From Bacteroidales bacterium (GTDB lineage: Bacteria; Bacteroidota; Bacteroidia; Bacteroidales; UBA932), in NCBI GenBank assembly GCA_017443845.1, contig JAFSXX010000047.1, positions 1 to 46,165 of the forward strand: a DNA stretch of 46,165 nucleotides, written 5' to 3'. Position 1 is the first letter of the stretch; each line of letters starts with the position of its first letter. The position numbers were made by a program, and so were the translations under genes. The notes beneath the pieces were generated by a model. It saw only the letters and a program-made list of their open reading frames with translations, was not told the DNA's origin and did not search any database. Below are positions 5,861 to 46,123 of this stretch, piece by piece.

Positions 5861-8800
5861 CTAAAGATCTCTTCCGTGGCAGTTTTTGTACTTCTTGCCG
5901 CTTCCGCAAGGGCAAGGGTCGTTGCGGCCCACCTTCTTCTCGACGTGGACCGGGGTATTGGACTTCTGCTCAGAGCTGTTGGTCAGCAAGTCGGGACGGC
6001 TGCTCTTCATACGGCTCAGGTCGGTGTGCTTCTCGCGGGCCTCGGTAGCCACTGTGTCGGGATCCTGTTCCTGACGCAGGAAGAGGATGGCGCGCATAAG
6101 GAACGCCACCACGTCGCGGTTGATATTCTCGAGCACGGTGATGAAGAGGTCGAAGCTCTCGGTCTTATAGACGAGGATCGGGTCTTTCTGCTCGTAAGCC
6201 GCATTCTGGACCGACTGTTTGAGGTCGTCCATATCGCGCAGATGGTCCTTCCAGTACTCGTCGATGACGCGGAGGGTGATGGTCTTCTCCACGGCGCGGA
6301 TAATCTCCTTTCCATGGCTCTCATAAGCCTTGCGCAGATCGACGAGGATGGTATAGACCTTCTTGCCGTCGGATACCGGGAGGGCGATATTCTGGTAGAA
6401 CATGCGCTTGGTGTCGTAAACGTGCTTTATGATCGGCCAGGAGAGGTCGATGAGGGTGTCGCTGCGCCTCTGGAGGGTATTCTGAAGGCTCTGCTGGAGC
6501 GATTCGGAGAGTTTTGCGGCATTCATCTTGCCGTACTCCTCCTCGCTGAAATCGGGAGTCACTGCCACGGCCCTCATAAGCTCGTCGCAGAAATCCTGAT
6601 AAGGGATATCCTTGTTCTGGGAGACGAAGGTCTCGCACCAGTCGGTGATCATATTGAGCACATCCACGTCGATGCGCTCTCCGGTGAGGGCGCTGCGGCG
6701 CTTGGTATAGACCACTTCCCTCTGGGAGTTCATCACGTCGTCGTAATCGACCAGGCGCTTACGGGTGCCGAAGTGGTTCTCCTCGACCTTCTTCTGCGCG
6801 CGTTCTATGGCCTTTGCGAGCATCGGGGCCTGAAGGGCGTCGCCCTCTTCCATTCCCATGCTGTCCACCACCTTGGAGATGCGCTCCGAACCGAAGAGAC
6901 GCATCAGGTCGTCCTCGAGGGAGACATAGAAGATGGAACTTCCCGGGTCACCCTGACGGCCGGCGCGGCCTCGCAGCTGACGGTCCACGCGGCGGCTGTC
7001 GTGCCGCTCGGTGCCGATGATGGCGAGTCCGCCCGCGGCGCGTACCGACTCGGTCAGTTTGATATCGGTACCACGGCCCGCCATGTTGGTAGCGATGGTC
7101 ACGGTACCGGGCTCACCTGCGTGCGCCACGACCTCCGCCTCTCGCGCATGCTGCTTTGCATTCAGAACCTGGTGGGGAATTCCGCGCATACGGAGCATCT
7201 TGCTGAGCAGCTCGGAGATTTCGACCGAAGTGGTACCGACCAGTACCGGGCGGCCCTCCTTCACCAGTTCGGAAATCTTGGCTATTACGGCGTTGTATTT
7301 ATCTTTCTTGGTCTTGTAAACGAGGTCGGGCTGGTCGTCGCGGATGACGGGACGGTTGGTCGGGATGACCACCACGTCGAGTTTGTAGATATCCCAGAAC
7401 TCCTTTGCCTCGGTTTCCGCCGTACCGGTCATACCTGAGAGCTTGTGGTACATACGGAAGTAGTTCTGCAGGGTGATGGTGGCGAAGGTCTGGGTCGCGG
7501 CCTCGACCTTCACATTCTCCTTGGCCTCGACAGCCTGGTGGAGTCCGTCGCTCCAGCGGCGTCCCTCCATTATACGGCCGGTGCCCTCGTCCACGATCTT
7601 GACCTTGCCGTCGATGATGACATAATCGACATCCTTCTCGAACATTGCGTATGCCTTCAGCAGCTGGTCCACGGTGTGCATTCGCTCCGCCTTGAGAGAG
7701 TAATTCGAATTGAGCTCGTCCTTCTTCTGCTGCTTCTCCTCGTCGGAGATATCCATATGCTCGATGGCGGCGGTCTCCTCTCCGAGTTTCGGCATCAGGA
7801 AGAAGTCGGGGTCTCCCACGGCGTTCGCGAGGATGTCGTTACCCTTGTCGGTAAGTTCCACGGTGCGCTGCTGCTCGTCGATGACGAAGAAGAGCTCGTT
7901 GGTGATGATGCGCTGCTCGATGTCGCGGTCGGAGAAGGCGGCGCGGATAATCTTGCTCTCGGCGTTCTGCAGGATCTGCTTGATGCCGGGTTCGCTCAGG
8001 TATTTGATCAGGGGGCCGTATTTTGGAAGTCCCTTGTGGGCGCGCAGGAGGGCGATTTCGCCTTTGTCGGTAATCTCGCCGGCCGCAATCTCGCGCTTGG
8101 CCTCGTTGAGGAACTGGTTGACCAGTTTGCGCTGCTCCTCATAGAGTTTTTGGACATAGGGACGGTACTGGACGAAGGTCTCGTCGCCGCTGTGCTGCAC
8201 AGGTCCGGATATGATCAGAGGGGTACGGGCATCGTCGATCAGCACGGAGTCAACCTCATCGACGATGGCGAACTGATGCTTGCGCTGCACGAGGTCGTCG
8301 GGGTTGATGGCCATGTTGTCGCGAAGGTAGTCGAAGCCGAATTCGTTGTTGGTTCCGAAGGTAATGTCGGAGAGATATGCCTTCTTGCGCCCCTCGGAGT
8401 TGGGCTCGTGCTTATCGATGCAATCGACGCTCAGGCCGTGGAACATATAGAGCGGACCCATCCACTCGCAGTCTCGCTTGGCCAGGTAGTCGTTGACGGT
8501 GACCACGTGGACTCCCTTTCCGGCCAGTGCGTTGAGGAATACCGGGAGGGTTGCCACGAGGGTCTTTCCCTCACCCGTGGCCATCTCGGCTATCTTGCCG
8601 GAGTGGAGGACGATACCGCCGATGAGCTGCACGTCATAGTGGATCATGTCCCAGGTGATCTGGTTGCCGCCGGCCATCCAGCTGTTTTTCCAGACGGCGG
8701 TGTCACCGTCCATCGAGACGAAGTCGCGGCTGGTGCTCAGGTCACGGTCGAAGTCGGTGGCCTTGACGCGTATGGTGCTGTTCTGGGTAAAACGGCGGGC

Positions 8801-9257: not shown

Positions 9258-9400
9258 TCAGTCTGCACTCCTCCGGGGCACACCTGCGGCAAGGGAGGGT
9301 TCGATTCGCAGCAGACAAGTTATCCGCGCAGCGGATGACGCAGGATGGGAGACTCTACACCCTTCCGGCCACAGGTGTGCCCCGGAGGAGTGCAGACTGA
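9258..9400. repeat. 29-bp perfect inverted repeat around an 85-nt centre
   Basis: Arms 9258-9286 and 9372-9400 are perfectly complementary over 29 bp. Pairing continues imperfectly inward: a GGC match, a 3-nt bulge, then AAGGG against CCCTT. The centre holds a small 6-bp hairpin, ATCCGC-GCA-GCGGAT (9322-9336). The element starts 19 nt beyond the stop of the metal-exporter gene and lies before the secA promoter, so it could terminate or process the exporter mRNA. It lacks the GCGTTTGTTAGC loop of the other hairpins in this window. Its 143-bp length with long terminal repeats is MITE-like, but no target duplication is evident. Confidence 0.8.
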
Positions 9401-29706: not shown

Positions 29707-29835
29707 GCTTTCCCTATGCCATCGCTGGCGAAGGGGCTGGCCAAGGCCGGAATCGGATCCATAAGGTTCGATTTCAACGGGCACGGCAAGAGTGAGGGAC
29801 GGATGCGGGATATTAGCCTACCACGAAATGATTAA
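29707..29835 (+). pseudogene. Alpha/beta-hydrolase remnant
   Basis: The frame from ATG 29716 to TAA 29833-29835 encodes 39 residues including LAKGLAKAGIGSIRFDFNGH then GKSEGRMRD. This closely resembles an internal stretch of alpha/beta-hydrolase (dienelactone-hydrolase/esterase-like) proteins just after the first conserved strands. The upstream catalytic-fold start and all downstream parts, including the nucleophile serine, are missing. The remnant ends exactly where the hairpin at 29836 begins. It is in the same frame as tonB, separated only by the tonB stop and three codons. It is unlikely to be functional. Confidence 0.7.
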
Positions 29836-29902
29836 GCCCTCCTAAAGCATAGCCCCCCTGGCAGCGTTTGTTAGCGCCAGGGGGGCTATGCTTTAGGAGG
29901 GC
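29836..29902. repeat. Conserved-loop hairpin, copy A
   Basis: Arms 29836-29862 and 29876-29902 pair perfectly over 27 bp around the loop AGCGTTTGTTAGC (29863-29875). The loop is shared with copies B and C near 39200, while the arms are different. It lies between the tonB side (+) and the end of the eight-gene minus-strand operon, 23 nt beyond the NimA-like stop, so it could end transcription from both sides. No T-tract follows on either strand. Confidence 0.88.
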
Positions 29903-29925
29903 AAACCGAGAGAGAGAATCAAAGA

Positions 29926-30408
29926 CTATTTCTCGCGGACGCGTTTTCCGGTGCAGTGCTCTATAGTAAACTCAAGGACATTGGCCCTGGGGGCGTTGTT
30001 CGCCATATCCTTCTCGATATCGTAGCCCTCGGGGAAATACTTTGCGCCGAGGAGGCGGAGATACTTATCCTTTTCCGCATCGTCTTCCATAATCGTTATT
30101 CGGCCGAAGCAGATGACACTGTTGACGTGATACCACCAGTCGCCGGGCTCCTTCTGCGGATTGTCTATGACTGTGAAGCAGGCCTTGTCACAAGATCTGA
30201 CCGCATCGATCTTATGGCCCTCCTTGGCACAGTGGAAATAGAGTTTGCCATCCCCGAGGACGAAATTGATGGGAATCGAATAAGGATAGCCGCCGTCCCC
30301 TATGACGGAGAGGAATCCCCTGTAAGCACTCTTAAGGATATCGATACACTCTCCTTCGGAAAGCTGCTGCTTGAACCGGCGCATCGGCCGGAAGTCCATA
30401 TCAGTCAT
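29926..30408 (-). CDS. NimA-like pyridoxamine-phosphate-oxidase-fold flavoprotein
   Basis: A 160-residue split-barrel protein. MRRFKQQLSEGECIDILKSA, YPYSIPINFVLGDGKLYFHC, AKEGHKIDAVR and CFTVIDNPQKEPGDWWYHVN match the 5-nitroimidazole-resistance (Nim)/PPOX group, which binds FMN or a related cofactor. The physiological substrate is unknown, and resistance cannot be assumed. Its first codons overlap the DUF362 gene by 8 nt; an in-frame ATG at 30399 would avoid this. It is the last gene of the long minus-strand cluster. Confidence 0.85.
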   Translation of the reverse strand: MTDMDFRPMRRFKQQLSEGECIDILKSAYRGFLSVIGDGGYPYSIPINFVLGDGKLYFHCAKEGHKIDAVRSCDKACFTVIDNPQKEPGDWWYHVNSVICFGRITIMEDDAEKDKYLRLLGAKYFPEGYDIEKDMANNAPRANVLEFTIEHCTGKRVREK

Positions 30409-31537
30409 TGTGCGGAGTCTCCTGGGAAGAGAGCTGCACGGCCTCCTGGACGAAAGGCTTCAGATCCTTTGCCGCATCTGCGGCGGTGATGCGTGCCCCG
30501 CCGTTGTCGAGGTCGATCAGCACATAGCGGTCATTACCCATTCCGAGTTCCTTCATATAGGAGAGCTGGCGGAGTCCGTGACGGGTCTCGATACGCTCCA
30601 CAAGATCGTGGTGCTCCTGTTCGGTCATAGCATAGATGATATCGACACAGGCCTGGTCGATGGCAAGGATATCGGTCGAGGAAAGGATACCGACATTCGG
30701 GGTCACGACAGGCTCCGCAGCGACGCCTTCACAATCGCAGGAAACCGACATATTGCGCATAACATTGACATAAGTCACTTTTTTGCCGAAATGATCTATC
30801 GTAGCCTTGGTGGATTCGGTCATACGCTCCATGAATTCCTCCTCCTTGATATCCCACTGATCGGGCTGGCCCGGGGTGGTATGGATCCACGCCTTGCCGA
30901 TGCGGCCGTCGGCGCAACCGATACCTATATTCTTGTTGCTGCCTCCGAAACCGCCCTGGGTGTGTCCCTTGAAATGGGTCAGGGCTACCATAGAATCATA
31001 ATTAAGGATATGGCTTCCCATCGACATCTTGTCGAACCACTTGCCGCCTTTGACCTCCAGGGTGACAGTATCTTCCTCGTCCATGATATCGACGGGGCAG
31101 AAATTCCAACCATTGACCTCGAGGGTCTTGCGATGGGCCTCGGTAGTGTAACGGTCGCCCTCGTAATAAGTATTGGTCTCGATGATGCTGGCATCGGGAA
31201 GATCCTTTGCCAGAAGCGCCTTCACCCACTCACGCGGAATGATATTCGGGCCGTTCTGTTCGCCGGTATGGAGTTTCACACCAACCTTGCCGGTAATCTC
31301 GCCGCAAACCTGCTCATACGCCTTGATGAGGCCTTCGGCCGAGAGCTCGCGGGTAAAATAAACCACTGATTCTTCGCCAGTGCGATCTTCCATAGGGATA
31401 TACTTCTCCCCGCCGGTACCGGCGACCGGCTTGGAAGCCTCCTTCTTGCCCTTACCTGTGCAGGCAACCACTACAACGGCACAAACGGCCAGCGCAGCAA
31501 CAACATAAATAATACTCATAAAACTTTTCATAATCAT
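30401..31537 (-). CDS. DUF362 domain protein, probable lipoprotein
   Basis: A 378-residue protein. An N-terminal hydrophobic stretch ends in VVVVACTGKGKK with a lipobox-like cysteine at C26. The DUF362 core follows (VGVKLHTGEQNGPN, LTHFKGHTQGGFGGSNKNIG, and cysteines in GIGCADGRIGK and SVSCDCEG). DUF362 proteins are often linked to iron-sulfur or redox chemistry, but the activity is unknown. No ferredoxin CxxCxxC motif is seen. Its ATG overlaps the Nudix stop (ATGA). Confidence 0.85.
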   Translation of the reverse strand: MIMKSFMSIIYVVAALAVCAVVVVACTGKGKKEASKPVAGTGGEKYIPMEDRTGEESVVYFTRELSAEGLIKAYEQVCGEITGKVGVKLHTGEQNGPNIIPREWVKALLAKDLPDASIIETNTYYEGDRYTTEAHRKTLEVNGWNFCPVDIMDEEDTVTLEVKGGKWFDKMSMGSHILNYDSMVALTHFKGHTQGGFGGSNKNIGIGCADGRIGKAWIHTTPGQPDQWDIKEEEFMERMTESTKATIDHFGKKVTYVNVMRNMSVSCDCEGVAAEPVVTPNVGILSSTDILAIDQACVDIIYAMTEQEHHDLVERIETRHGLRQLSYMKELGMGNDRYVLIDLDNGGARITAADAAKDLKPFVQEAVQLSSQETPHND

Positions 31538-32685
31538 TTCTTTCCAAAAAACTTCTTGTATTCCAACTCGAAATTGGGAGTAAAAACCTTCTTGCCGAAA
31601 TTGGCGGCAAGTTCCTCAGGTGTCCAGAAACGTCCTTCTTCGAGCTCGTCGCTTGGCACCGGGGTCACATCGCTCACGGCGCGGTAAACATAGACATACT
31701 CCCTGTCGCGCGCGGACTCGAAAATGTACTTGCCCAGCAGCACCGGCTCAAAGGTCTCAAGCCCTATCTCCTCCCTCACCTCGCGCCTGAGGGCATCCCC
31801 TACCGGCTCTCCGAATGCGATGTGGCCGCCGACGGCGGTATCCCACTTCCCGGGCTGGATCTCCTTCCAGTCGGGCCGCTTCTGCAGATAAAGCGCACCG
31901 TCGCCGTTGAACAGATGCAGATGCACCACCGGATGAAGCAGTTTCGTGCCGTTATGGCACTCCTTGCGCGTAGCCTTGCCGACAGTTACGCCGCGCTCGT
32001 TGACCAGAGGCAGCATCTCGAAGGGATCGTCCCTTTTTACGGGCGCGGATTCGAGGCGGCCGGTCTCTTCCGAAGGCACCTTCGCGGCAGTCTCCCGAAC
32101 TGCTGAAACATCATCCGCTACCGGCCTGGCCGAATGATGATTATGGATATGTACCGGCCTGGCCTGGGCCTGCGCGAGGGTCAAAGGCAAAGGCTCGTAG
32201 GAGACCTCGACAATCTCGACCTCACGGTTGCCGGCCGGCAATCCCGAAGTCACCGTCTCCCCCGCTCCGCGACCGGCTATGGCCTTTGCGACCGGCGAGA
32301 AGAATGAGACCAGCCCTTTGGCAGCATCGGCCTCATCGGCCCCGACGATACGGAAAGTCCGGTTCTTGCCGCCGTTGATACGCACCGTCACATAGGCTCC
32401 GAATCCCACCCTGCCGGGCTGCTCCCCTATCTGGGGAACGACCGCGGAAGATATCCTCTCCTCGAGGAGTTGGAGTTTGGCATTCAGATAATTGCGGGTG
32501 ATGCGGAGATCCGTCTCGTTGCCCGAGGCCGAGTCTCTACGGGCGATGATATCTTCCCTCTCGGCATTGAGCGACGCGAGCCCCTCGGGAGTGACCAGAT
32601 TGGCGACCCCGTCGGGAATCCAGGCCCTCTGCTCCACAGCGGGAACCTCTTCGATATCTCCGTCCTTAACGAATCCCCGGCTCAT
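31534..32685 (-). CDS. GreA-type elongation-factor domain fused to a Nudix hydrolase
   Basis: A 383-residue two-domain protein. Residues about 28-165 resemble GreA/GreB: TPEGLASLNAEREDI begins a coiled-coil-like segment, and GFGAYVTVRINGG, FRIVGADEADAAKGLVSFFS, PVAKAIAGRGAGE form the C-terminal Gre fold. A variable linker (about 168-222) with HIHNHH follows. Residues about 223-383 form a YfcD-like Nudix domain with a perfect Nudix box at G287-L309 (GHIAFGE, then RREVREEIGL). Whether the Gre part still enters the RNA polymerase secondary channel is unknown. The N-terminal coiled coil is shorter than in GreA. It is coupled to the DUF362 gene by ATGA. Confidence 0.85.
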   Translation of the reverse strand: MSRGFVKDGDIEEVPAVEQRAWIPDGVANLVTPEGLASLNAEREDIIARRDSASGNETDLRITRNYLNAKLQLLEERISSAVVPQIGEQPGRVGFGAYVTVRINGGKNRTFRIVGADEADAAKGLVSFFSPVAKAIAGRGAGETVTSGLPAGNREVEIVEVSYEPLPLTLAQAQARPVHIHNHHSARPVADDVSAVRETAAKVPSEETGRLESAPVKRDDPFEMLPLVNERGVTVGKATRKECHNGTKLLHPVVHLHLFNGDGALYLQKRPDWKEIQPGKWDTAVGGHIAFGEPVGDALRREVREEIGLETFEPVLLGKYIFESARDREYVYVYRAVSDVTPVPSDELEEGRFWTPEELAANFGKKVFTPNFELEYKKFFGKK

Positions 32686-32691
32686 ATGGCT

Positions 32692-33729
32692 CTATTCTTT
32701 GACACAGCGGACCGAGCGCGCGGTTCCGCGATACGCACCGAATCCGCCGTTGATATTCCCCTCCCAGTCGAAAAGCTGCGAACGGGCGAGGCAGTTTACA
32801 GGCTTCGAAGCCCAATAGTATCCATACTGCCCCACTCCGCCGTACGTTCCGTCGATGCCGCTGCGGAAGCCCGCGGCGGGGGTCCATATCTTGTGCGAGG
32901 CATCGGCCCTGTCGGTCGATACCATTCCGCGGCCTTCTGCATCCCATTGGGGATCGGCACCCAGCACATTGCCGGAGGAGGGAACCTTCCATCCTGCGGG
33001 ACAGGGGTCATATTTTGTCTTTTCGGATGCCCATCGGGTATTGTCGGCAACGGGCGCACCAGTATAAAGCCAGTCACAGTTGGCATCGTCCCATAGCAGG
33101 AAAACGGTAGGATTGTAACGGGTATATTCGACCGTACCGGTATAGCTGTCGGAAGCTACAGGTTTGGGCCAGCGAAGCGTGGTGTGCGCCTCCTTCTTCC
33201 CATCGACGGAGAGAGGTCCGGGGAAGGGATCCTTGCGTCCCCATTGATAGAAGAGCCCGAGGGCCAGCGGATTGCCCGGTTCCGCACTGAGGGCTCCGAG
33301 ATTGCGGTCCATCATAATGACATTCCCCTTGGCATCCTGCTGATAGCACCCTTTCCCGGGATCGTAATCGGTCACCCAGATATGCCACGACCAGAGGATA
33401 TTGCCGTTCTCATCCTCAACCGCAACCATAGCATTGCCGGCCGATCCGGCCGTAAGGGAGATGATACCGGTCTCTTTCGAGAATGAGACCGAAGCGACGA
33501 TATCGCCCGGTTTGACCTTATTGTCGGCACCGGCAGACTCCCAGAAGACTCCGGCATCGACGGGTACGCCCTTGACGGTATCCCGGCTGCAGCCCTGCAG
33601 ACGGGCGTCGAATTCGAGTTTCGCTCCCGGACGGACCATAAAGCAATTGGCGGGAACGGCGACCTGGGCCCGGGCGCAGACCAGGGCAGCGAGCAAAAGG
33701 GCGACAGCTGTAAAAATTCTCTTATTCAT
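32692..33729 (-). CDS. Exported FISUMP-domain protein
   Basis: About 345 residues. The signal peptide MNKRIFTAVALLLAALVCAR leads into a beta-rich region, then a Fibrobacter succinogenes major paralogue-type (FISUMP) domain marked by MMDRNLGAL, GLFYQWGRKDPFPG, YDPCPAGWKVPSS and a C-terminal GTARSVRCVKE. Such domains occur on secreted or surface proteins of Bacteroidota and Fibrobacteres, and their ligand is unknown. The ATG at 33729 is preferred over 33876, which would overlap the LOG gene and lacks a signal peptide. Confidence 0.8.
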   Translation of the reverse strand: MNKRIFTAVALLLAALVCARAQVAVPANCFMVRPGAKLEFDARLQGCSRDTVKGVPVDAGVFWESAGADNKVKPGDIVASVSFSKETGIISLTAGSAGNAMVAVEDENGNILWSWHIWVTDYDPGKGCYQQDAKGNVIMMDRNLGALSAEPGNPLALGLFYQWGRKDPFPGPLSVDGKKEAHTTLRWPKPVASDSYTGTVEYTRYNPTVFLLWDDANCDWLYTGAPVADNTRWASEKTKYDPCPAGWKVPSSGNVLGADPQWDAEGRGMVSTDRADASHKIWTPAAGFRSGIDGTYGGVGQYGYYWASKPVNCLARSQLFDWEGNINGGFGAYRGTARSVRCVKE

Positions 33730-33745
33730 ATCACGGGGCACGGAA

Positions 33746-34318
33746 TCAATCCTCAAGTGCATTAATCTTTTCGAGCAGTTCCTCAAGGGTATCGCAGAAT
33801 ATGGGGAGGGCGTCATCGCCACCCGGGATGAAACCGTCGGACGACATCCTGAGGAACTGCGCCTTGAGCGAGTCATAATAACCTTTATGGTTCAATAAGA
33901 AAACCGGCTTGGAATTTACGCCGGTAGTGCGTTCCACCATATGTCCGAGCAGTTCGTCGAGAGTGCCCCATCCGCCAGGCAGGGCGACGCAGCAGGTGCA
34001 GAGTTCCGACATCACCTTCTTGCGCTCGGCCATATCCTTGACCAGCATCAGATGGGTCACATCCCTGCGGATAAGTTGCTCGGAAGTGGCGTAGTGATTC
34101 TCTTTATGCCCCTTGAAGCCCTTGGGGAAGACGCCGTAAACAATTCCTCCCGCGCCAAGGGCGCCGTCGGCAAGGGATTTCATAGTGCCGACAGTCGATC
34201 CGCCATAGACCAGCGCGATGTGCGCCTCGGCCAGTTTGCGGCCGAAGCGGTACGCGAGGTCGCAGAACTCCTTGGATTTGCCGGGATTGGCTCCCAGATA
34301 TACGGCTACTTTCTTCAT
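33746..34318 (-). CDS. LOG-family nucleotide 5'-monophosphate phosphoribohydrolase
   Basis: A 190-residue Rossmann-like protein. Its defining motif is PGGWGTLDE (114-122), with MAERKKVM just before it and VYGGSTVGTMKSLADGALGA in the N-terminal half. Family members cleave nucleoside 5'-monophosphates to base and ribose 5-phosphate (cytokinin-activating type in plants). The bacterial role is usually nucleotide salvage. It starts 3 nt after parC, within the minus-strand cluster. Confidence 0.9.
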   Translation of the reverse strand: MKKVAVYLGANPGKSKEFCDLAYRFGRKLAEAHIALVYGGSTVGTMKSLADGALGAGGIVYGVFPKGFKGHKENHYATSEQLIRRDVTHLMLVKDMAERKKVMSELCTCCVALPGGWGTLDELLGHMVERTTGVNSKPVFLLNHKGYYDSLKAQFLRMSSDGFIPGGDDALPIFCDTLEELLEKINALED

Positions 34319-34321
34319 ATC

Positions 34322-37108
34322 CTAAAAGAGTGTGAGGTCATACGGATCCTTTACCACGTGGGGGATTTCCTGCTCAGGCTCAGGCTCGTTTGCAGGCTCG
34401 GTCTCTGCTGCGGGTTCGGACTCCTCAACCGGAGTATCGGGCTCCTCTTCGGGCTCGGGTTCCGGCTCAGGAATCTCCTTCTCGAGAGGCTCGATGAACT
34501 CCACCTTGCCGATATCCTTTGCCGTCAGGCGGCGTCCCTTGGCCTTGAGGCCATATTTCTCCACGAATTCCTCGACGTCGATCTTCTCCGGGTCCTTATC
34601 CTTGCTCTTGCCCTTGAAGGTCACCTGCGCCTGCGGGAACATATCGTCGGTGATGGCCACAAACCTGGAGCCGGACTCTTCGGCGATGAACGAAGCGGGG
34701 TTGACATTGTTGTATGGCTCAAAGGAGAAGCGCTTGATATAGAACATCTTGACCGACCCGTCGTAATAGATGGCCGAATAGACCTTCGCCGGATCGAATT
34801 TCTCGATACGGAGAATCTCTCCCTGATAGCGGTTGCTCAGATCGTATGAAGTAGTATAGTAAGTTCCGTTGCTCAGGACCACGAGCACCAGGTCGTCCTG
34901 CATGAACTCGCCCAGATAGATACCGGAACCGGAGTCATTCAGGCGGTTGACATCAGTGTCGAACCATATCTCCTTGCCTCCCAGGGTCGAAACGCCCTTG
35001 GACTTGAGGGTTATGCGCTGGATGGTATTCTGCTTGGTGACGAGGTTTCCCATCGAAGAGCGACCCTTGATCATAAGTTTCGCGAAGTCGAACTCCTCGG
35101 AGAGTTTCTTGATCTTCGGACGCGGCTTGTAGGCTATCCTGAGGACCTCCGCCTCGCCGTTGCCGTTGGAGGTGAACCATACCACGTAGGAGTTCGGAGT
35201 CCCCTTTGTGAGGTTGTACATCTTGTCGCGGGTTATACCCGTGATCGAGAACCTCTTGGCATAATAGGCTCCCTGGCGGCCGTCCCGGTAGATGACATTA
35301 TATACGGTGCGTTCGTCCCTGCGGTTGAATACGGCCGCGTGGATTATATCTTTTCCCACGAAGAGTTTGTCCTTGACCTTGGTCACCATATAGTCACCGT
35401 TCTTCATAAAGACTATGATCTCGGCGATATCGGAGCAGTCGCAGATGTACTCCGCATTCTCGATCTTTTTCTGGTCGGTTCCCACGAATCCGTCCGCCTT
35501 GTTGGCATAGAGCTTCGCATTGGCCGCGATGGCCTTCTCGGCCTGGATCTGCTCGAACGTGGCGATTTCGGTGCGGCGCGGCCAGGCGGCGCCATATTTC
35601 TTCTTGAGCTGCTGGAAGTACCTGACGGTAAAGTCGGTAAGGTGCTCCAGATTGTTGCGGACCTCGTCGATATTGGCCTCGATGCCGCGGATGCGCTCCT
35701 CGGCCGCCTTGATATCGAATCTGGATATCTTCCTGACAGGTTTCTCGACCAGCTTCGCGATGTCGGCCGGAGTTATCTCGCGGCGCAACATATCCTGATA
35801 CTGCTTCATCCCCGCCTCGACGTCGGCGAGCTGCTGTTCCCAGGATACGGCGTCGTTCTCGAGGATGCGGTACACCTTCTTCTCGAAGAATATCTTCTCG
35901 AGCGAAGAGTAGTGCCAGTCGGCCTCGAGTTCATCGAGCTGGATATTGAGCTCCTGCTCGAAGAGGTCCTTGGTATGGAATGCGTTGTATTTGAGGATTT
36001 CGTCCACTCCCATAAAATGAGGGTGGCGGTCCATGATGACACAGGCATTCGGGGAGACGGCCACCTCGCAGTTGGTGAAGGCGTAGAGGGCGTCGATGGT
36101 CTTGTCGGGCGAGACGTCGTTCTGCAGTTGGATGTTGATATCCACGGTATCGGACGACATGTCATCGACCTTCTTGATCTTGATCTTGCCCTTGTCGGAG
36201 GCCTTTATGATCGAGTCGATGAGGCTCTCGGTGGTCTGTCCGTAAGGAATCTCGGTAATCGAGAGGGTGCGCTTGTCCACCTTCACGATGCGTGCGCGGA
36301 TCTTGACCTTGCCCCCGCGCAGGCCGCGGTTGTATTTCGAGCAGTCGATCAGGCCGCCGGTGGGAAAATCGGGATAAATCTCGAATTCCTTCCCCCTGAG
36401 GGCCGCCACGCTGGCGTCGAGAAGTTCGTTGAAGTTATGCGGGAGGATCTTTACGGCGAGACCTACGGCGATTCCCTCGGTGCCCTGGGCGAGCAGCAGC
36501 GGGAATTTCATCGGCAGCACCACCGGTTCCTGGTTGGTTCCGTCGTAGGAGGGCACCCACTCGGTGATCTTCTTGTTGAAGGCCACCTCAAGCGCGAATT
36601 TGCTCAGGCGGGCCTCGATATAACGCGAAGCCGCCGCAGCGTCACCGGTGAAGATATTGCCCCAGTTTCCCTGACAGTCGATCAGATATTCCTTCTGTCC
36701 GAGTCCTACCAGCGCATCCTTGATGGAGGCGTCGCCGTGGGGGTGGTACTTCATCGTGTCGCCCACGATTCCGGCAACTTTGTGGTAATGGCCGTCGTCC
36801 ACCTTCTGCATCGCGTGCAGGATACGGCGCTGGACCGGCTTGAGGCCGTCCTCTATGTGAGGCACCGCGCGGTCGAGTATGACATAGGAGGCGTAGTCGA
36901 GGAACCAGTCCTTGTACATTCCCGAGAGTTTGTACTTGTTCTCGCCCTCCGCCACCAGGCGGTCGTATTTGTCGGTATCGGCCGCATTGAGATCGTCGTC
37001 GTCCAGGATCTCCCCGGCCTCCTCCTGCTCCTCCTGCTCTTCGGCCTGTCCTGCCGCCTCTTCGTCGATGAAATCTTCTTCGTACCCTTCGAGATCTTCC
37101 TTACTCAT
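34322..37108 (-). CDS. parC: DNA topoisomerase IV subunit A
   Basis: A 928-residue type IIA topoisomerase A subunit. The catalytic tyrosine is Y163 in AAAASRYIEARLS. The helix-turn-helix region has MKYHPHGDASIKDALVGLGQ, so the residue equivalent to GyrA Ser83 is alanine. A beta-pinwheel C-terminal domain of reduced size and an E/P-rich tail follow. The first roughly 48 residues form an acidic extension (EEQEEQEEAGEILDDDD). ATG 37108 is preferred over TTG 37114. The parE gene is not in the window. It lies 14 nt after era and 3 nt before the LOG gene. Confidence 0.93.
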   Translation of the reverse strand: MSKEDLEGYEEDFIDEEAAGQAEEQEEQEEAGEILDDDDLNAADTDKYDRLVAEGENKYKLSGMYKDWFLDYASYVILDRAVPHIEDGLKPVQRRILHAMQKVDDGHYHKVAGIVGDTMKYHPHGDASIKDALVGLGQKEYLIDCQGNWGNIFTGDAAAASRYIEARLSKFALEVAFNKKITEWVPSYDGTNQEPVVLPMKFPLLLAQGTEGIAVGLAVKILPHNFNELLDASVAALRGKEFEIYPDFPTGGLIDCSKYNRGLRGGKVKIRARIVKVDKRTLSITEIPYGQTTESLIDSIIKASDKGKIKIKKVDDMSSDTVDINIQLQNDVSPDKTIDALYAFTNCEVAVSPNACVIMDRHPHFMGVDEILKYNAFHTKDLFEQELNIQLDELEADWHYSSLEKIFFEKKVYRILENDAVSWEQQLADVEAGMKQYQDMLRREITPADIAKLVEKPVRKISRFDIKAAEERIRGIEANIDEVRNNLEHLTDFTVRYFQQLKKKYGAAWPRRTEIATFEQIQAEKAIAANAKLYANKADGFVGTDQKKIENAEYICDCSDIAEIIVFMKNGDYMVTKVKDKLFVGKDIIHAAVFNRRDERTVYNVIYRDGRQGAYYAKRFSITGITRDKMYNLTKGTPNSYVVWFTSNGNGEAEVLRIAYKPRPKIKKLSEEFDFAKLMIKGRSSMGNLVTKQNTIQRITLKSKGVSTLGGKEIWFDTDVNRLNDSGSGIYLGEFMQDDLVLVVLSNGTYYTTSYDLSNRYQGEILRIEKFDPAKVYSAIYYDGSVKMFYIKRFSFEPYNNVNPASFIAEESGSRFVAITDDMFPQAQVTFKGKSKDKDPEKIDVEEFVEKYGLKAKGRRLTAKDIGKVEFIEPLEKEIPEPEPEPEEEPDTPVEESEPAAETEPANEPEPEQEIPHVVKDPYDLTLF

Positions 37109-37122
37109 AGTCAAAACCTGTA

Positions 37123-38037
37123 TTAATCAAGAATATAGCCGAACTTCTTCAACTTCCTGCGATCTTCCCGCCAGTTGGGCTCGACCTTTACAAATGTCTG
37201 CAAAAAAACTTTCTTTTCAAAGAAGGACTCCATCTCCAGACGTGCCTCGGTGGCCACTTTCTTGAGCGCCTTTCCCTGGTGTCCGATGATGATACCCTTC
37301 TGCGAATCGCGCATCACGTTGATGACCGCGCTTATGTCGTAACGTTCCTCTCCCTCCTTGAACTCCTCTATCACGACCTCCGTGCAATAGGGAATCTCCT
37401 TGGTATAGTTCGTCAATATCTTCTCGCGGATAATCTCCGAAGCGAAGAAACGCATCGACTTGTCGGTAAACTGCTCCTTGTCGTACCAGGGCGGGCTGAC
37501 GGGCAGGAGCTCCACGATATGGTCGAAAAGGTTCTCCAGATTGAACTTCTCGAGGGCCGATACCGGGAAAACCTCCGCCTTGGGCACGAGCGCCTTCCAC
37601 TCCTCCATCAGGGTCAGCACCTCGTCCTGCCTGCCGAGGTCGATTTTGTTGAGCACTACCAGCACGGGGCATTCCAGGCGGTTGAGAGCCTCGACATATT
37701 CGATGTTCTTGTCCTTCTTCTCCACTATGTCGGTGACATAGAGGATTATGTCGGCATCGCCGATCGCCGTCTGGACGAAGTCCATCATACTCTCCTGCAG
37801 ACGGTAACTGGGCTTCAGGATGCCGGGCGTGTCGGAATAGACTATCTGGTAATCCGGCCCGTTGACGATGCCCATGATGCGATGGCGCGTGGTCTGCGCC
37901 TTGGCGGTCACTATCGAGAGTTTCTCTCCCACCAATGCGTTCATCAGCGTGGATTTGCCCACGTTCGGATTGCCTATGATATTGACGAATCCGGCGCGGT
38001 GCTGCTTCTTCGGAGTTTGTTCCCTGTTCTCTTCCAT
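37123..38037 (-). CDS. era: Ribosome-assembly GTPase Era
   Basis: A 304-residue GTPase that binds the 3' end of 16S rRNA. G1 is GNPNVGKST (22-30), G3 DTPG (69-72) and G4 NKID (130-133). The C-terminal KH domain contains IIIGHQGKALKKVATEAR. It starts 18 nt after rluB ends and is followed by parC. Confidence 0.96.
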   Translation of the reverse strand: MEENREQTPKKQHRAGFVNIIGNPNVGKSTLMNALVGEKLSIVTAKAQTTRHRIMGIVNGPDYQIVYSDTPGILKPSYRLQESMMDFVQTAIGDADIILYVTDIVEKKDKNIEYVEALNRLECPVLVVLNKIDLGRQDEVLTLMEEWKALVPKAEVFPVSALEKFNLENLFDHIVELLPVSPPWYDKEQFTDKSMRFFASEIIREKILTNYTKEIPYCTEVVIEEFKEGEERYDISAVINVMRDSQKGIIIGHQGKALKKVATEARLEMESFFEKKVFLQTFVKVEPNWREDRRKLKKFGYILD

Positions 38038-38055
38038 CCTGTGCCTTGTTTGGGA

Positions 38056-39060
38056 TTACTCGAACGAGCCCATCTTGAGTTTCGAAATCTCCGCCTCGGT
38101 GAGGAAACGCCAGTCGCCGCGTTTGAGCGCCTTCTTCGTCAGGCCGGCGAAATAGACGCGGTCGAGCTTCTTGACCTTGTATCCCAGATGCTCGAATATA
38201 CGGCGCACGATGCGGTTGCGGCCGGAATGGATCTCTATCCCTATCTGGGATTTCTCATCCTCGACATAAGAGAGGGAATCGGCGTGAATCTCGCCGTCCT
38301 CGAGGGTTATGCCCTTGAGAATGGCATCGAAATCCTCCTTTTTGAGGTTCCTGTCGAGGAATACGTGGTATATCTTGCGCGCACCGTAGGAAGGATGCGT
38401 GAGTTTCTCGGTCATCTCGCCGTCGTTGGTGAACATCAGCACACCGGTGGTGGCCTTGTCGAGCCTTCCCACCGGATAGATGCGCTGGGGGCACCTCGTG
38501 GCGGGAATGAGATCCATCACCGTCTTCTCGGCGTGGGGATCCGATACGGTGGTGACATAATCCTTGGGTTTGTTCATCACCAGATAGACCTTGGTCTCGC
38601 CCTTGATGCGTTCGCCGTTGAAGCGGACATCGTCGTCGTAGCGGACCTTGTGGCCGAGTTCCGTTATGCGTTCGCCGTTTACCGTAACAAGCCCCGTCTG
38701 GATGAACTCGTCGGCCTCCCTGCGGGAGCAGATGCCCGAGTTGGCGATGAACTTGTTGAGTCTTACGAACTCCTGGGTCTCAGGACGCACGGGCTTCTTC
38801 TCGACGGGCTTCGCAGCGCGGACTGCGGGTTTTACAGCGCGGGCTCCGGATTTGTAGCCTCCGCGGGAAGCGAACTTCCCTTCGGTCCCGGTTTTAACCG
38901 ATGAGGGCGCACTCTTTGACCTGGTCGAAGGACGTCCTGCCGGAGCACTTTTGCCGCGTCCTGCCGAAGGACGACCTGCCGCGCTCCTGCCTCCCCTGTT
39001 CGATAAACTCCTGCCGCGACCATTGCCGGTCGTCTTTCCGCTGCGTGTATCTTTTTCCAT
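38056..39060 (-). CDS. 23S rRNA pseudouridine synthase, RluB type, with basic N-terminal tail
   Basis: A 334-residue protein. Residues 1-95 are a low-complexity basic tail rich in R, S, G, K and A. An S4 RNA-binding domain follows (about 98-145; RLNKFIANSGICSRREADEF), then the RsuA/RluB catalytic domain with D201 in VGRLDKATTGVL and KIYHVFLDR. It isomerises a uridine in 23S rRNA. The long basic tail, common in Bacteroidota members, probably aids RNA binding. It is first in the cluster rluB-era-parC-LOG-FISUMP-GreA/Nudix-DUF362-Nim. Confidence 0.9.
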   Translation of the reverse strand: MEKDTRSGKTTGNGRGRSLSNRGGRSAAGRPSAGRGKSAPAGRPSTRSKSAPSSVKTGTEGKFASRGGYKSGARAVKPAVRAAKPVEKKPVRPETQEFVRLNKFIANSGICSRREADEFIQTGLVTVNGERITELGHKVRYDDDVRFNGERIKGETKVYLVMNKPKDYVTTVSDPHAEKTVMDLIPATRCPQRIYPVGRLDKATTGVLMFTNDGEMTEKLTHPSYGARKIYHVFLDRNLKKEDFDAILKGITLEDGEIHADSLSYVEDEKSQIGIEIHSGRNRIVRRIFEHLGYKVKKLDRVYFAGLTKKALKRGDWRFLTEAEISKLKMGSFE

Positions 39061-39099
39061 TGTTTAATCTCGATTGTATCTTATTGAACTATAATCCTG

Positions 39100-39107
39100 C
39101 AAAAATA
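39100..39107 (-). promoter_or_regulatory. -7 box of the rluB-era-parC cluster
   Basis: The minus strand reads TATTTTTG, 39 nt before the rluB ATG. The -33 element is unclear. Confidence 0.55.
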
Positions 39108-39146
39108 ACATTTTCCGGCAAATAATCCTAATAGGCGCCCCGTCAA

Positions 39147-39215
39147 AGGCCCTTCGAAGCACTGTCCCCCGGGGTGCGTTTGTTAGCCCCCGGGGGACAG
39201 TGCTTCGAAGGGCCT
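39147..39215. repeat. Conserved-loop hairpin, copy B
   Basis: Arms 39147-39174 and 39188-39215 are perfectly complementary over 28 bp. The 13-nt loop is TGCGTTTGTTAGC (39175-39187), differing from copies A and C only at its first base. The arm includes the TTCGAA and CCCCCGGGG segments. The loop points in the + orientation. Confidence 0.88.
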
Positions 39216-39234
39216 CGTGGAAGATTGCCAGCCT

Positions 39235-39303
39235 CCGGAGTGCGGGGTGTTGCCTCACGGGGGCTAACAAACGCTCCCCGTGAGGCAACACCCCGCACTT
39301 CGG
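39235..39303. repeat. Conserved-loop hairpin, copy C (inverted relative to B)
   Basis: The stem pairs 39239-39262 with 39276-39299 (24 bp, perfect). After one G-T mismatch it continues for 3 bp more (39235-39237 with 39301-39303). The loop 39263-39275, read on the minus strand, is AGCGTTTGTTAGC, identical to copy A. Only 19 nt separate it from copy B, giving a back-to-back pair. Confidence 0.87.
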
Positions 39304-46020: not shown

Positions 46021-46089
46021 TATTGCAATAGAGTAGGAGGAAAGCAAAAGTAGTGAGTTTTCCTCCTACTTTTGTTTTCCGACCTCTCA

Positions 46090-46123
46090 CACCACCGTAC
46101 GTGCCGTTCGGCATACGGCGGTT
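46090..46123 (-). ncRNA. Group II intron domain V
   Basis: On the minus strand, ACCGCCGTA and TACGGTGGT form the lower stem. TGCC/GGCA forms the upper stem with loop GAAC, and a small bulge separates the two stems. The catalytic triad position reads CGC, followed by CGTAT. The size is about 34 nt, as expected for domain V. Confidence 0.8.

Follow-up and report, generated by a model that had tools for sequence, protein, structure and literature searches.

Introduction

The closest described relatives of the elements reported here are the REP, BIME and REPIN palindromes and the HUH transposases associated with them. The excerpted text of a REP survey (PMC3733652) defines the tags GTAG and CGTC, and that of an HUH survey (PMC6006769) reports a subclass, rich in Bacteroidetes, that has atypical secondary structures at its flanks. 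A second term of comparison is quasi-palindrome template switching, which, according to the excerpted text of PMC8794818, can introduce several compensatory changes in a single event, extend the stem and leave the loop conserved; the same process is discussed for perfect palindromes in the portion consulted of a study on Nematomorpha (PMC6649704). Here, we describe hairpins that combine features of both, found in a window of 46,165 nucleotides (the whole stretch of DNA that was analysed) from a Bacteroidales genome. We favour, with a probability of roughly one half, the reading that they are non-autonomous REP-like palindromic insertion elements whose arms are renewed by quasi-palindrome template switching.

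Hairpins with a Constant Tip

The first-pass annotation had reported three hairpins with a common loop, and all three were recovered in the window (Table 1). In each of them the arms enclose the tip NGCGTTTGTTAGC, which forms an 8-nt loop beneath two closing G-C pairs, and as single-stranded DNA they fold with z-scores of –11.5 (w1), –11.8 (w2) and –10.3 (w3), none of 200 shuffles being as good. On the evidence of arms, tip and folding, constant-tip hairpins with variable, self-matching arms are real. The second and third hairpins form an inverted pair (39147–39303) with 19 nt between them, the inverted-repeat arrangement of REPINs and BIMEs, unlike w1 and a fourth copy elsewhere in the genome, which occur singly.

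Table 1. Hairpins and associated features located in the window.
Feature	Position	Strand	Arms	Tip or cap	Context
w1	29836..29902	+	29836–29862 with 29876–29902; perfect, 27/27 Watson-Crick	AGCGTTTGTTAGC, 29863–29875	neighbours convergent
w2	39147..39215	+	39147–39174 with 39188–39215; perfect, 28/28 Watson-Crick	TGCGTTTGTTAGC, 39175–39187	neighbours divergent
w3	39235..39303	–	39235–39262 with 39276–39303; 28 bp, 27/28 Watson-Crick, one A.C mismatch	39263–39275, minus strand	
Family C copy	9258..9400	+	~30 bp, unlike those of other copies	cap ~9300–9359	intergenic
Hydrolase-like gene remnant	29716..29823	+			directly before w1

Distribution of the Tip

The exact 12-mer of the tip occurs four times in the genome (2,055,367 bases; a draft assembly in 57 contigs, 93% complete), against about 0.25 occurrences expected by chance on simple arithmetic and none in the reversed-sequence control, and all four occurrences lie within hairpins. 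The fourth copy lies on contig C13, with a tRNA gene on one side and a thymidine-kinase-like gene (a name read by eye) on the other; it is decayed, its stem containing one mismatch, one bulge and one wobble pair. The objection foreseen in the first-pass annotation, namely that the 12-mer might be found mostly without arms, therefore fails in this genome. Among 60 relatives, 11 further occurrences are spread over eight genomes, and in none of them does perfect pairing of the arms at the loop exceed 5 bp; two, both in the congener G031, sit within inverted arms that match imperfectly (20/31 and 24/34 aligned), and their folding does not surpass that of shuffles (z –0.40 and –0.97).

A pattern fitting all four copies matched only this genome among 393 genomes of the order, and in the GTDB contigs it gave one match, which lacks long arms. 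A covariance model built from the four copies, run on 40 genomes of the genus, recovered this genome and one weak match in G031 (28 bits). Since the 12-mers of the relatives lack long perfect arms and the two G031 copies fold like shuffles, the strict 13-nt-tip family appears to be confined to this genome, G031 holding a possible older relative. A phage or plasmid origin was considered and rejected: the viral contigs gave only four chance matches, without arms, and no match to one cap pattern, and phages and plasmids gave no match (the queries being w1, for phages only, and one family B copy, described below). In the accessible text of the open-licence PubMed Central literature on REP transposases, template switching, quasi-palindromes and palindromic elements no such family was found, and the nine papers of that collection containing the 12-mer have titles and abstract openings unrelated to bacterial repeats.

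Sister Families with Larger Caps

The window hairpins are not the sole example of their plan: in a sample covering 1,342,839 bases here and 336,725 bases in G031, sister families carry larger constant caps (~50–75 nt) on variable self-complementary arms, and one of their copies lies in the window. Family B (cap ~66–75 nt) was analysed in 14 copies, four from this genome and ten from G031, with perfect arm runs outside the cap model of 23 bp (locus L113), 28 bp (L054) and 25 bp (L171); in 400 kb of the relative G003 it was not found, apart from one weak match (E 0.089). Family B′ (cap ~50 nt) has arms in three of five cap matches and none in the other two. Family C (cap ~60 nt) comprises seven copies, all in this genome and all long-armed, with a mean pairwise cap identity of 0.92. 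Four copies in G031 (L161, L162, L169 and L172) have arms in common.

Two other repeats were noted. The CCACGAAATGAA repeat is unrelated and follows the reverse plan, with constant arms and a variable loop; one of its stem positions is A-T in eight, G.T in two and G-C in one of 11 sampled copies. A pair of hairpins with the tip AGCTTGCT, known from two copies, apparently combines a constant tip with differing arms.

Insertion Sites

Judging from the orthologous gaps of several congeners, which lack them, the hairpins are insertions, empty sites having been defined for w2 and w3, for copy 4 and for one family B copy. The gap that holds w2 and w3, between an rluB-like pseudouridine-synthase gene and an FtsX/MacB-type gene (Pfam), measures 306 nt, and its hairpin-free counterparts measure 90 nt in G021, 103 nt in G029 and 89 nt in G015, the only three relatives with reliable gap lengths, five others having been excluded for a wrong start codon. 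By eye, the gap of G018 resembles these hairpin-free congeners, and that of G031 contains other genes, including an HUH-like frame. The aligned flanks of copy 4 lie 126 nt apart here vs 55 nt in G031, and at L054, where the copy belongs to family B, comparison with G031 reveals a clean insertion of ~157 nt. The gene remnant that precedes w1 has no second copy in its own genome, and the hydrolase-like gene has intact-looking relatives in G063 and G004. A separate observation concerns the tRNA-Met terminator, where the end of the tRNA recurs in inverted form at p ≤ 0.003 in three of 21 loci tested (one additional locus being too short) and at p = 0.037 at the locus of this genome; palindrome growth at this terminator is suggestive only.

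Covariation of the Arms

In the alignment of the four copies 93.9% of the cells pair, and of the 30 stem pairs 21 have changed on both sides, one on one side and seven never, the remaining one departing through unpaired cells only; none of 500 shuffles reaches this. Sliding the alignment by 1–3 columns drops pairing to 39–54%, a control biased in favour of the structure, which was derived from the same four copies. The tip is the best-preserved part of the element; several arm positions adjacent to the loop are common to the copies, and the outer arms differ. Some relatedness between the arms of different copies is thus visible next to the loop.

The arms of a copy match each other far better than they match those of other copies, with mean scores of 19.8 v 7.4 in family A (six copies), 19.4 v 7.1 in family B (14 copies: the 12 of 22 matches that span the cap, plus two added by hand) and 29.6 v 9.9 in family C (seven copies), where the highest score between copies and the lowest within a copy are both 23 and the arms of L053 and L083 are clearly related. 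Two outside sources of arm sequence were rejected. Other loci find no support in the 1.68 Mb sampled, where perfect-arm copies match nothing over more than 15 bp except the partner arm, and copying from the host flanks is unsupported at L054, a clean site to which both arms came with the insertion. A comparison with G031, intended to tell which of the ancestral arms had been copied in w1–w3, gave no significant result (best uncorrected p 0.036).

CGGAG Feet

Thirty copies (six of A, 14 of B, seven of C and three of B′, leaving out the two armless B′ matches) were scanned over 45 nt on either side of the cap. The word CGGAG lies to the right of the cap in 18 of the 30 and to the left in 11, against 2.8 and 2.1 expected from shuffles; copies within a family being related, these and the other counts are not independent events. 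The REP tags are not enriched at the feet: GTAG occurs in two right and four left flanks (4.8 and 5.0 expected) and CGTC at one right and four left (4.0 and 5.4 expected). In L161_410, L162, L169, L172, L175 and L109 the word is identical on both sides and hence unpairable. In the near-perfect L113 and L100 the left foot is CGGAG and the right one its reverse complement, within stems of at least 28 pairs, as would be predicted where one arm overwrites the other; this favours arm-to-arm copying over a function as RNA. Family C has GGAG at the same left position in five of seven copies, three of which carry an unpaired CGGAA on the right, L100 having the complement. The CGGAG foot is absent from the perfect stem of w2 and from copy 4; w1 has a GGAG/CTCC pair, whose reading as a foot is only suggestive.

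Transposase Genes

Four genes in the genome match PF01797 (Y1/HUH, RAYT-like), three of them above the Pfam cut-off. Three of the four were compared with NCBIfam, and each matches the model for the REP-associated tyrosine transposase with a score short of the cut-off. The flanks of these three of the four, inspected in this 93% complete genome, hold other repeats, and no transposase linked to the hairpin copies was found.

Proposed Origin and Renewal of the Hairpins

Between copies the tip (13 nt) or cap (~50–75 nt) is conserved, together with the CGGAG foot in the wider group, and the stem is conserved merely as a stem. According to the favoured reading, at the replication fork the strand would fold at the hairpin and the polymerase would copy one arm from the other; a mutation in a single arm would either be lost or be carried over to the partner arm, and the two would drift as a pair. 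Tip and foot would be held by recognition, and a Y1/HUH (RAYT-like) enzyme might, more speculatively, move the folded single strand in trans. The arms are inherited on movement and diverge later, because those of L054 came with the insertion and four G031 copies have theirs in common. Of the three causes proposed in the first-pass annotation, arm-to-arm template switching is the best supported, on the strength of the reverse-complemented feet of L113 and L100. Its assertion that ordinary processes cannot yield constant loops with covarying arms was too strong, template switching being a published route to them in the excerpted text of PMC8794818. Template switching alone does not explain why the tip is far better preserved than the arms, and no insertion was encountered whose alleles differ by a single conversion.

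Selection alone could also account for paired arms, if an HUH/Y1 transposase required a single strand folded into a long hairpin that bears this tip and only paired changes survived, with no special copying involved. The constancy of tip and cap, the tip being the best-preserved part, and the presence of four Y1 gene matches fit this explanation, as does the fact that the four G031 copies with common arms indicate that arms travel with the element. We nevertheless consider it rather unlikely, since the four copies show nearly no one-sided changes, in L113 and L100 the foot on one side has turned into the reverse complement of the foot opposite, and imperfect copies (L161, L162, L169 and L172) have also moved. 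The non-Watson-Crick cells counted over families A and B (12 G.T, eight A.C and 54 other) do not separate copying from selection.

A function at the RNA level, as a terminator, an mRNA-end hairpin or a structured RNA, would suit w1, which lies where two convergent genes end, and likewise copy 4, located downstream from the tdk-like kinase gene. It is improbable in view of w2 and w3, which lie upstream of both adjacent genes: contexts that differ in this way fit badly with a single common transcriptional role. Furthermore, the sequence read by eye has no T-run after the stems, as an intrinsic terminator would; no Rfam family reaches its gathering score, the low-threshold look-alikes being mostly microRNA precursors; and the stems of w1–w3 are devoid of G.T pairs. 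That caps are alike while arms differ completely could also mean that the tip or cap inserted into the middle of pre-existing palindromes, an explanation to which we give even less credit, the orthologous gaps being palindrome-free and G031 lacking both arms at the L054 site. An artefact of assembly or amplification, conceivable in a draft assembly of this kind, is the least credible of all, with one tip at several within-contig loci carrying different arms and with sister families present in both genomes sampled.

Families defined by tip and foot only would escape repeat finders that cluster palindromes on their stems. If arm-to-arm copying is true, covariation, which usually serves as proof that a structure is under selection, can arise without selection on structure, and dispersed copies with a constant cap and different arms offer a natural test bed for separating copying from selection. 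More tentatively, and at some distance from the favoured reading, the 13-nt-tip, B, B′ and C families of this one genome might constitute a class of mobile palindromes in its own right among bacteria, cap-and-arm elements, in which a constant tip and CGGAG feet would be recognised on folded single-stranded DNA and a free stem would be renewed arm-to-arm.

Comparison with Known Systems

The analogy with REP and BIME drawn in the first-pass annotation holds: the palindromes are insertions between genes, two of them form an inverted pair and the genome carries Y1/HUH genes. Like the REP/BIME/REPIN palindromes and their RAYT (TnpA-REP, Y1) enzymes, the present elements are intergenic, inserted and palindromic, with a short foot word and inverted pairs, and, as in RAYT systems, the inspected Y1 genes of the genome (three of four) have their own repeats around them. 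They differ in that the stems are long and free in sequence under a constant tip or cap, the foot is CGGAG rather than GTAG or CGTC, and no linked Y1 gene was found. Moreover, REPs are short stem-loops in many dispersed intergenic copies, whereas the 13-nt-tip family has stems of 24–28 bp and four copies; the sister families are more numerous, yet their stems are also long. With quasi-palindrome template switching, described in PMC8794818, PMC3820800 and PMC7202029, the hairpins have in common perfectly complementary arms and two-sided changes under a kept loop; that is, however, a mutation process and not an element, and it leaves dispersal and the constant tip unexplained. The coding palindromes of Nematomorpha mitochondria (PMC6649704) are likewise long, near-perfect inverted repeats kept despite change, for which template switching has been proposed, but they lie in coding DNA and the portion consulted reports no common tip. 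Finally, the Rickettsia palindromic elements, compared through their description in the same portion of PMC6649704, are, like those reported here, selfish palindromic insertions, with the difference that their arm identity is reportedly lost over time.

Other Repeats and Hairpins in and Around the Family

Besides the three constant-tip hairpin copies (w1, w2 and w3), several palindromes of other kinds are found in the window and at the sampled loci (L-numbers in the table). The copy w1 directly follows a remnant of a hydrolase-like gene, and the 22 nt separating the two include CCACGAAATGA, which is an arm word of a different repeat in the same genome. In the congener G031, reading by eye places an HUH-like frame between GCCCAATGG..CCATTGGGC repeats in the gap between the pseudouridine-synthase and FtsX genes, the same gap that w2 and w3 occupy in the window's genome.

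Features recorded in the window and at sampled loci
Feature	Location	Strand	Remark
Family C (sister family) copy	window 9258-9400		arms ~30 bp plus constant cap
Hydrolase-like gene remnant	window 29716-29823		immediately ahead of w1
Group II intron match	window 46028-46123	(-)	Rfam, 44.6 bits; contig edge
Hairpin of this match, found again	L108 9633-9675
tRNA-Met terminator hairpin	L038 18783-18851		own-genome contig C13; lengthened by inverted copy of tRNA 3' end
Long near-perfect hairpin pair	L055 5124-5187; L079 3863-3927		common tip AGCTTGCT
Long-cap palindrome, separate type	L105 13044-13185; L105 18920-19066; L066 596-744		repeated
CGTCGTCCCA..TGGGACGACG palindrome array	L055 ~7160-7650		directly past Y1 transposase gene

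Inverted copies comparable to that of the tRNA-Met terminator are present at some orthologous tRNA-Met loci (p<=0.003 in 3 of the 21 tested). The arms of the two AGCTTGCT-tip hairpins differ in part; those of the separate long-cap palindrome, which are GTGACGTCGGG-like, are similar among the copies seen. Among known systems, the array adjoining the Y1 gene resembles a CGTC-tagged REP array.
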